Shown: positions 11,534 through 12,950 of the stretch, piece after piece
Numbering within the stretch: position 1 is the stretch's first letter
Layout of the letters: each line of letters begins with the position of its first letter
Assembly: GCF_014196835.1 (NCBI RefSeq)
Contig: NZ_JACIEK010000001.1
Location: 62,001 to 126,000, forward strand
Direction of reading: 5' to 3'
Source: Aureimonas pseudogalii
GTDB taxonomy: Bacteria; Pseudomonadota; Alphaproteobacteria; Rhizobiales; Rhizobiaceae
Length of the DNA: 64,000 nucleotides
Notes under the pieces: generated by a model
Database searches by the model: none
What the model was told of the DNA's origin: nothing
Seen by the model: the letters and a program-made list of their open reading frames with translations, nothing else
Made by a program: the position numbers and the translations under genes

Positions 11534-12226
11534 TCAGATGACGATTCGCGGCGCGTCCCGGTAGGGCAGCACGGAATTGACGATCACCCGGTAGGGCACG
11601 AGGCCGAAGATCGCGATGGCGAGCTTCACCGTGAAATCACCGAGCGCCCAGGAGATCCAGCGCGGCGCCTCGGTAGAGAAGACGCCGAGAAGCGGCGCGC
11701 TCTGCAAGGCGAAATCGTCGCTCGGGCCGAACACGGCCAGGAAGGGCGCGAAGGCCACGGTGAAGAAGATCGCGGTGTCGAGCATCGAGCCGGCCAGCGA
11801 GGATGCCGCGGGCGCCTTCCACCACGAGCCCTGGCGCAGGCGGTTGAAGACGGCGATGTCGAGAAGTTGCGCGGCGAGGAAGGCGAAGCCGGAGGCCGCC
11901 GCGATTCGCGCGAGACGCTCGCCCGTGGCGGCGAACTCGAGCAGCCCGGCGCGGAAGAGAAGCGGCGGCACCACCAGCGACGACGCGATGGCGAGCGCGA
12001 AGCCGAGATAGACGATGCGGCGCGCGACCCGCGGCCCGAACAGGCGGTTGTTCAGATCCGTCACCAGAAACGCGAAGGGATAGGTGAAGGCGCCCCAGGT
12101 GAGCACGTCGCCGAGCGCGAGGGCGCCGATCTGCCCCTCGACGGGAAACTGCACGAGGACGTTGGAGGCGAGCACGATGAGCGTCATTGCGGCCACGGGC
12201 AGGACGAGAAGTCCGGGTCGGGTCAT
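11534..12226 (-). CDS. Queuosine precursor transporter (YhhQ/VUT family)
   Basis: Six-helix inner-membrane protein (230 aa) of the DUF165/YhhQ family, which brings the queuosine precursor preQ0 or preQ1 into the cell for tRNA modification. The family hallmark TYPFAFLVTDLNNRLFG is in the second helix region, and GSWWKAPAASS and SMLDTAIFF follow. Two starts are possible: ATG at 12241, which lies inside a candidate riboswitch pseudoknot, and ATG at 12226, preceded by GGA at about 10 nt. I favour the second because the riboswitch fold would then mask the ribosome site. It follows rpmB on the same strand after a strong terminator. Confidence 0.88.
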   Translation of the reverse strand: MTRPGLLVLPVAAMTLIVLASNVLVQFPVEGQIGALALGDVLTWGAFTYPFAFLVTDLNNRLFGPRVARRIVYLGFALAIASSLVVPPLLFRAGLLEFAATGERLARIAAASGFAFLAAQLLDIAVFNRLRQGSWWKAPAASSLAGSMLDTAIFFTVAFAPFLAVFGPSDDFALQSAPLLGVFSTEAPRWISWALGDFTVKLAIAIFGLVPYRVIVNSVLPYRDAPRIVI

Positions 12227-12235
12227 GGCGGGTCG

Positions 12236-12268
12236 ATCCATTTTTTTAGGCTGGGGTATGGCACCAGC
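12236..12268 (-). promoter_or_regulatory. Candidate preQ1-I riboswitch
   Basis: Reading the minus strand, GCTGG (12268-12264) pairs with CCAGC (12254-12250) to form a 5-bp stem. The 9-nt loop TGCCATACC contains CCAT, which can pair with ATGG (12241-12238) after an A-rich tail CTAAAAAAA. This is the H-type pseudoknot layout of preQ1 class I aptamers: short stem, loop ending in C, A-rich linker, second stem that masks the start or ribosome site. The gene it precedes carries preQ0/preQ1, the expected target. The call is based on pattern matching by eye. Confidence 0.68.
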
Positions 12269-12293
12269 GACAGGTCGAAGGAGGTTCGGATAC

Positions 12294-12317
12294 GAAAACG
12301 CCGCCCGAAGGCGGCGT
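12294..12317 (-). terminator. Rho-independent terminator of rpmB
   Basis: Perfect 8-bp stem ACGCCGCC/GGCGGCGT around a stable TTCG tetraloop, followed by TTTC on the minus strand, 28 bases past the rpmB stop. It separates rpmB from the transporter gene. Confidence 0.75.
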
Positions 12318-12344
12318 CGAACTCTTGAAATCGGCGGACCGAAA

Positions 12345-12650
12345 TCAGGCGGCGACAGCCTCGGCGGTCGTCGCGGTCTTCTTGGCGATCTGGCGCTTCA
12401 GCAGCTTGGCGCGCTGCGACAGGTCGGTTTCGGGCGCCTTGGTCAGGAAGGCGTCGAGGCCGCCGCGGTGCTCGACCGAGCGCAGCGCGTGGGCGCTGAC
12501 GCGCAGGCGGAAACGCTGGCCGAGCGCGTCGGAGATCAGCGTGACCTGGCAGAGGTTCGGCAGGAAGCGGCGACGCGTCTTGTTGTTCGCGTGGCTGACA
12601 TTGTTACCGGACTGGACGGCCTTGCCGGTCAGTTCGCAAGCGCGTGACAT
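12345..12650 (-). CDS. rpmB: 50S ribosomal protein L28
   Basis: Ribosomal protein L28 (101 aa), a component of the large subunit. The start [24 protein letters not shown] is diagnostic, followed by [14 protein letters not shown] and the [15 protein letters not shown] segment. An AAAGGTGAT ribosome-binding site is seven bases before the ATG. Length is typical for alphaproteobacterial L28. It is divergent from a DUF3108 gene across a 300-base region and ends in a clear terminator. Confidence 0.97.
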
Positions 12651-12950
12651 GGGATCACCTTTCAAACGTTCGATACGGCCGTTCGGGGCGCGCCGCCACC
12701 GAAACGGCAGCGCGATCATCGACCCCATGGCATGATCGGAAAATCGATCGTCCCTATAGTCGCCACCGTCCATTTCGTCAACCATCGTGGCCCGCCGTCG
12801 CACGCCATGCCCTTCGAAAGGCCGCCGCGGCCGGCGTTCCCGAGGGTTCGGCCCTTGCGGGTCGTCGCGAGCCTGCCATGATGAGGTCGTCTTCTCCCGA
12901 CCCTTCCCTCCACGTTTTTCGGCGCCGCGCGTCCGACACGGGAATCGCCC
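12651..12950. other. Divergent intergenic region rpmB/DUF3108, no gene seen
   Basis: Exactly 300 bases separate the start codons of rpmB and the DUF3108 gene. It must hold both promoters. I see no convincing small gene, repeat or structured RNA here; the open frames that cross it have no start or family match. Confidence 0.5.

Follow-up and report, generated by a model that had tools for sequence, protein, structure and literature searches.

A probable preQ1-I riboswitch, akin to type III, whose pseudoknot takes in an AUG before yhhQ in Rhizobiales

Type III of the preQ1-I riboswitches, reportedly defined by McCown and others in 2014, is the closest described relative of the element reported here. 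Its solved representative is the aptamer of the E. coli yhhQ leader, which reads UUGGG-UUCCCUCAC-CCCAA, a linker and AAAAAGG. In the passages of PMC10622847 on that structure, C9, C10 and U11 pair with G30, G29 and A28, C8 lies in the ceiling of the pocket with the A28-U11 pair, U7 contacts A27 and preQ1, and A13 touches U11; the same passages describe type III as almost exclusively gamma-proteobacterial. Riboswitches of preQ1 classes II and III likewise control queuosine precursor transporters, according to the relevant sections of a 2024 review (PMC11625349), which also predict translation-controlling riboswitches that lack a Shine-Dalgarno sequence and are hard to find for that absence. An Rfam-based survey that included 15 Rhizobiales genomes placed preQ1 riboswitches mostly in Firmicutes plus one or two proteobacterial lineages (PMC3766115). 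Among the literature matches listed, none was recognised as dealing with a preQ1 riboswitch before yhhQ in Rhizobiales; the work of McCown and others (2014) might overlap.

In the window, the whole stretch of 64,000 nucleotides that was analysed, an element of comparable plan reads GCTGG-TGCCATACC-CCAGC-CT-AAAAAAATGG on the minus strand from 12268 to 12238. An earlier note on this DNA had described a 5-bp stem, a 9-nt loop, an A7 tail and a CCAT/ATGG pairing in front of a YhhQ-family gene, and each of these parts was found in its place: CCAT (12261-12258) is complementary to ATGG (12241-12238) on the minus strand, and the ORF at 11534-12241 (235 aa), whose frame is shared by the ATGs at 12241 and 12226, matches TIGR00697 (queuosine precursor transporter, E 3e-28) and Pfam Vut_1 (E 8e-27). 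The features are as follows.

12264..12268, minus strand: 5' strand of P1, GCUGG, read from the sequence
12255..12263, minus strand: aptamer loop of 9 nt, UGCCAUACC (as DNA TGCCATACC), read from the sequence
12258..12261, minus strand: 5' strand of P2, CCAU, read from the sequence
12250..12254, minus strand: 3' strand of P1, CCAGC, read from the sequence
12242..12249, minus strand: L3 tail, CU followed by six A, read from the sequence
12247-12241, minus strand: tract of seven A, preceded by CT at 12249-12248; its last A is the A of the P2 AUG
12238..12241, minus strand: 3' strand of P2, AUGG, that is, the conserved AUG and the next base, from the sequence and relatives
12237..12239, minus strand: GGA overlapping P2, a probable Shine-Dalgarno in the window's subgroup
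12224..12226, minus strand: probable yhhQ start ATG, 15 nt after the P2 AUG, judged from relatives
11534..12241, minus strand: yhhQ (QPTR), queuosine precursor transporter; this ORF opens at the P2 AUG and would span 11534-12226 with the downstream start
12345..12650, minus strand: rpmB (ribosomal protein L28), upstream neighbour, by protein-family match

Aligned with the E. coli aptamer in the structural passages of PMC10622847, U12263 and C12255 appear to be the counterparts of its first loop U and its specificity C, and the A-rich strand of L3 is expected to lie in the minor groove of P1. Between rpmB and the element stands a GC-rich hairpin, CGCCGCC-UUCG-GGCGGCG followed by four T (12299-12316), which by eye looks like the rpmB terminator; it was absent from the output of the terminator scan, which requires five T. 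No sigma-70-like promoter was found around the element in 12150-12900, and the pseudoknot-free fold of the element's region was not unusual (z -0.16).

The gene yhhQ was found in 143 of the 151 genomes of the window's family. A covariance model (R1) was built from 29 of the 30 best loci, L014 having been left out as it has no element, and it gave a strong match (E 1.2e-4 or better) in 135 of the 151 family genomes, the next best match having E 0.013 and no further match falling below E 0.01 in these 151 genomes. All 135 elements directly precede yhhQ, which amounts to 135 of the 143 yhhQ-bearing genomes of the family. From CTGG to ATG, 23 of 29 positions were invariant in the first 29 sequences, unlike the 12 nt on the 5' side of the element, which vary widely among relatives. 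The element stands out as a conserved island in front of yhhQ, more than chance would give; chance resemblance was rejected by the strong R1 matches in 135 of 151 genomes and by the covariation in 135 of 135 elements described below. Translation puts the ATG that closes the A tract into the YhhQ frame in 130 of the 135, and coordinates do so in two more (L095, L147); the other three have it next to the gene but in another frame.

The pairings are kept in 135 of 135 elements, so that their loss in relatives with the same gene order, which together with the lack of a covariance-model match the earlier note had taken as the sign that it was wrong, did not occur there, with the caveat that 8 of the 143 yhhQ genes (G004, G006, G056, G082, G091, G093, G111, G124) stand without an intact element though the gene order is kept. 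All eight of these loci retain the L28 (rpmB) motif nearby, a motif for which 37 of 37 loci tested positive, and G111 retains, by eye, a damaged copy of the element. Two of these relatives with small genomes, L159 (G111) and L160 (G006), have no queF match and no full-length queC match, and in front of their yhhQ the element is either damaged or not clearly recognisable; possibly, and this is a guess, the element decays there as precursor salvage changes, a kind of decay discussed for Bartonella henselae in the relevant part of PMC11570991. The loss of queF and queC does not run cleanly with the loss of the element: G093 and G124 have queC and queF and no element, and G039 has no queF match and keeps the element. 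A pattern scan of GTDB species genomes gave at least 119 stretches with the element. The 80 matches listed belong to Rhizobiales where the title tells, one title saying only Alphaproteobacteria and one only 'Bacterium', and the carriers among the matches listed include S. meliloti, R. johnstonii 3841, A. tumefaciens B6, Mesorhizobium, Brucella, Aurantimonas and Aureimonas. These names suggest that the window's family is Rhizobiaceae.

Bases are numbered here from the first C of CUGG, so that base 30 is the first base after AUG. P1 is CUGG/CCAG in 134 of the 135 elements and CCGG/CCGG in one (L147); since P1 hardly varies, this single compensatory change in 135 gives it little covariation support. 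An outer, fifth P1 pair is not general (G-C in 5, C-G in 1, U-G in 10, none in 119 of the 135). In L147 (G005) the homology of the yhhQ behind the CCGG/CCGG variant begins about 60 codons after the AUG, which suggests a long N-terminal extension of this YhhQ. The loop usually has 9 nt. The complementarity of CAU and AUG is kept in 135 of 135, and the A tract, whose last A belongs to the AUG, has seven A in 130, six in 3 and eight in 2.

The covariation lies across the start codon. Where loop bases 6-7 are GC, base 30 is G (13 of 13), and where they are GG, base 30 is C (53 of 53), whereas UC goes with A in 31, C in 24, U in 14 and G in none of 69 elements. The rule that a G at base 6 is accompanied by a base 7 able to pair with base 30, as C-G or G-C, holds without exception in 135 of 135 (Fisher tests, with kinship ignored, 2e-18 and 4e-16), with 23 nt as the usual distance between base 7 and its partner at the start of codon 2. 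The second sample, from the GTDB species genomes (at least 119 loci), overlaps the family set in part, and the rule was obeyed in 119 of the 119 matches listed (GG with C 59/59; GC with G 8/8; UC with A 34, U 10, C 8, G 0). On a maximum-likelihood tree of YhhQ, which held 109 of the 135 proteins, the loop type takes 11 changes and base 30 takes 35; at least three of the loop-type changes are required by strongly supported branches. Independent pairs of GC against UC on well-supported branches went in the expected direction in 3 of 3, the numbers of such pairs, 3 and 2, being too few for a significant sign test. In the covariation count over 26 sequences the structure scored 0.027 and one slid control (+3) scored higher, 0.036, 14 of the 26 rows being U6 forms, in which the fourth pair is missing; for the 12 G6 rows the score of the structure was 0.133 and that of slid controls at most 0.024. 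This count left out 8 of the 34 distinct elements, and 4 of the 16 distinct G6 elements, for unequal length. Judged from its pairing pattern in relatives, the comparison shows a conserved RNA pseudoknot before yhhQ that pairs with the AUG and, in half of its members, also with the next base. Thus the reading of the locus as a class I pseudoknot, which the earlier note had put forward, gained support from the constancy of P1 and of CAU/AUG and from compensating changes in relatives, C-G against G-C at the fourth pair of P2, of the kind that it had proposed to look for.

The linker is GAU in 110 of the 135 elements, giving CCAGGAU, and in most members AGGA would serve as a Shine-Dalgarno 7 nt before the AUG and partly inside P1. 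Five family members (the window, L006, L010, L012 and L103) have C at position 18; this base provides the fifth P1 pair and does away with AGGA. In 3 of these 5 C18-type members the P2 AUG does not share the frame of YhhQ, versus 0 of the 130 others in the family set, and each of the three has an in-frame start codon downstream. C18-type loci among the at least 119 of the second sample are L251, L280 and L300 (all three Aureimonas) and L345; the P2 AUG is out of frame in 4 of 4, and possible starts (ATG or GTG) lie 13, 16, 14 and 17 nt downstream, respectively. AUGGA is present in all nine C18-type members, five from the family set and four from the second sample. In the window's subgroup the GGA of the P2 strand is therefore probably used as the Shine-Dalgarno, much as in E. 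coli, and yhhQ in the window probably starts at ATG 12226, as had been suggested at the outset. This downstream start is argued from the window-type relatives, in which the P2 AUG is often out of frame, since both ATGs of the window are in frame.

The earlier note had looked to the Rfam covariance model as a check, and RF00522 (cut-off 39 bits) gave no match to the window's element; indeed, no Rfam family covers it in a scan of its stretch (E up to 5). In the loci of 18 relatives neither RF00522 nor the other preQ1 families matched (E up to 10), and the models of preQ1 classes II and III (RF01054, RF02680) had no match in these Rfam scans. The control was the yhhQ leader of E. coli K-12, whose aptamer is the solved preQ1-I type III riboswitch of the structural passages of PMC10622847, and RF00522 missed this leader too (L032 3700-4600, 901 nt searched, E up to 10). 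Because a solved aptamer was missed as well, the failure of RF00522 on the rhizobial element says little, and Rfam was rejected as the arbiter of membership.

The only RF00522 match listed for the window's genome (E up to 10) reached 14.1 bits, far below the cut-off. It is a second element in this genome, CCGG-UCGCAGCCCAC-CCGG-UCAAAACAAGG, which looks like type II and stands just before a queC-queD-queE operon, in which queC was identified by Pfam and queD and queE by eye from their translations.

G000:C2:269218-269257 (L001 1501-1540; L372): type II-like element of the window's genome, before queCDE

We take this queC-leader element to resemble the thermophile type II aptamer sequence. QueC matched at E 1e-20 or better in 65 of 297 family genomes, and among the best 30 of these 65 loci the type II-like element stood before queC in 30 of 30, the window's genome included, which also has homologues of queF, queC, queA and tgt. 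Where queuosine biosynthesis is under one preQ1-I form, the uptake of the precursor is plausibly under another.

Searches of 385 class, 199 order and 398 phylum genomes yielded no convincing case beyond the family. R1 run on the 385 class genomes found only the window's own genome below E 0.01, and 14 others lay at E 0.012-0.05, about the number expected by chance. Run on the 199 order genomes it found six matching genomes, all of family f1. A pattern of the UUCCAU form hit 11 of the 398 phylum genomes, 10 of them in family f1; the eleventh, G1013, is without the CCAG closing strand. Divergent forms outside the family could be missed by these searches, since the R1 filters were stricter and the phylum scan used an exact pattern.

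We consider the element very probably a translational preQ1-I riboswitch, a rhizobial variant of type III that would bury the start codon and not the Shine-Dalgarno. From the sequence comparison we infer preQ1 as the ligand and repression of translation as the outcome. When preQ1 is plentiful it would pair with the last loop C and stack between the P1 and P2 helices, and the bound form would lock the AUG in P2, where the ribosome could not start; when it is scarce, P2 would open and the precursor transporter YhhQ would be made. In most members the start codon would be what is buried, with the AGGA Shine-Dalgarno running out of P1, and in the window's subgroup AGGA would have been lost, AUGGA turned into the Shine-Dalgarno and the start moved about 13-17 nt downstream (15 in the window).

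Another ligand on the same fold is an unlikely alternative: the rhizobial form, or its G6 half, may have shifted to preQ0 or another 7-deazaguanine. In 66 of the 135 members G6 stands where the E. coli structure has the U in contact with preQ1 and A27 (passages of PMC10622847 cited above), and YhhQ imports preQ0 as well as preQ1, as mentioned in PMC11625349. At least 3 of 22 genomes checked (G023, G073, G079) have the element and queF and no full-length queC match, so that imported preQ0 would be a meaningful signal there. On the other side, the first loop U and the last loop C, the expected readers of a guanine-like ligand, are identical in 135 of 135, and G6 and U6 forms have changed places before this gene on more than one occasion, which speaks for a single function.

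A structured leader that needs no ligand, in which the pseudoknot tunes translation by itself or answers to temperature, S1, an sRNA or a protein, seems to us very improbable. Covariation, it is true, speaks for pairing and not for ligand binding, but the unpaired first loop U, last loop C and most positions of the A tract vary no more than the paired bases, the loop nearly matches the one in a solved preQ1 aptamer that precedes the same gene, and a second preQ1-I-like element sits on the queuosine biosynthesis operon. A DNA operator with CTGG...CCAG half-sites, or a conserved coding start without RNA structure, is scarcely credible and was rejected, for although CTGG/CCAG is a nearly invariant inverted repeat, base 7 and base 30 swap in Watson-Crick fashion across the AUG in 135 of 135 while the remaining codon-2 positions vary.

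The preQ1-I riboswitch reading has several consequences. It would give a large and sharply bounded group whose pseudoknot buries the start codon itself, carried among others by Sinorhizobium meliloti, Rhizobium and Agrobacterium. As the covariation reaches into the coding sequence, the mechanism can be tested by the exchange of single bases. As RF00522 also misses type III of E. coli, queuosine regulation in proteobacteria may be under-annotated, and the yhhQ start in Aureimonas-like genomes may need moving. The wider view, that the element is a fourth form of class I aptamer, with the start codon and the base after it inside the aptamer, with interchangeable P2 helices of 3 and 4 bp under differing ceilings, and with one lineage in which the AUG became part of a Shine-Dalgarno region and a new start arose downstream, strikes us as evenly poised; if it is true, ligand sensing constrains protein sequence.

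The earlier note had likened the element to the thermophile type, a likeness that gave way to type III on comparison. With type II (T. tengcongensis, B. subtilis; Rfam RF00522) the rhizobial element shares the pseudoknot plan, the C before the 3' strand of P1 and an A-rich L3, whereas its loop is short and without the CGCAG of the type II-like element, and RF00522 does not match it. Class II and III preQ1 riboswitches (RF01054, RF02680) are larger folds with another topology.

With type III of E. coli it shares the downstream gene family, yhhQ, the H-type pseudoknot plan, the A-rich tail leading into P2, the translational position and a short pyrimidine-rich loop, UUCCCUCAC in E. coli and UUCCAUCAC in rhizobia, the latter being the commonest rhizobial loop (45 of 135 members). 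These two loops differ by one base, and the tail partner is changed to match: the C10-G29 pair of E. coli is A-U in rhizobia, which turns the buried AGG into AUG. With R1 the E. coli leader reaches only 6 bits, over the loop alone, so that R1 does not establish type III membership, which rests on the base-by-base comparison. Of the traits of type III, UU flanking the 5' strand of P1 is present in 69 of the 135, which are all the U6 forms, while all 66 G6 forms, the window's included, have UG. The last loop base, the specificity C of the type III AC motif, is C in 135 of 135, and the A before it is found in 119 (67 UC, 45 GG, 7 GC), that is, in 67 of 69 UC forms versus 52 of 66 G6 forms; the window has CC. 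The two UC members without the AC motif have a 10-nt loop ending in ACC. The 4-5 adenines before P2 have their equivalent in the tract of six to eight.

The UC forms keep the pocket bases of E. coli, except for the compensated pair and, in 2 of 69, the A; they are without G at base 30, presumably because a G there would pull the ceiling C into P2. In the G6 forms a P2 of 4 bp and an L1 of 2 nt are possible, and these forms would have to build the ceiling of the pocket differently from E. coli. Type III is joined by a rhizobial element that differs from it in range, with carriers in Rhizobiales as against the almost exclusively gamma-proteobacterial range described for type III, in its P1 (CUGG/CCAG, mostly 4 bp) and linker (3-7 nt, mostly 3), and, in 66 of 135 members including the window's, in G6 and a fourth pair of P2. 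Where P2 of E. coli type III buries the AAGG Shine-Dalgarno, AUG stands at that place in 135 of 135, and it is this AUG, with the next base in the G6 forms, that the rhizobial P2 would bury.
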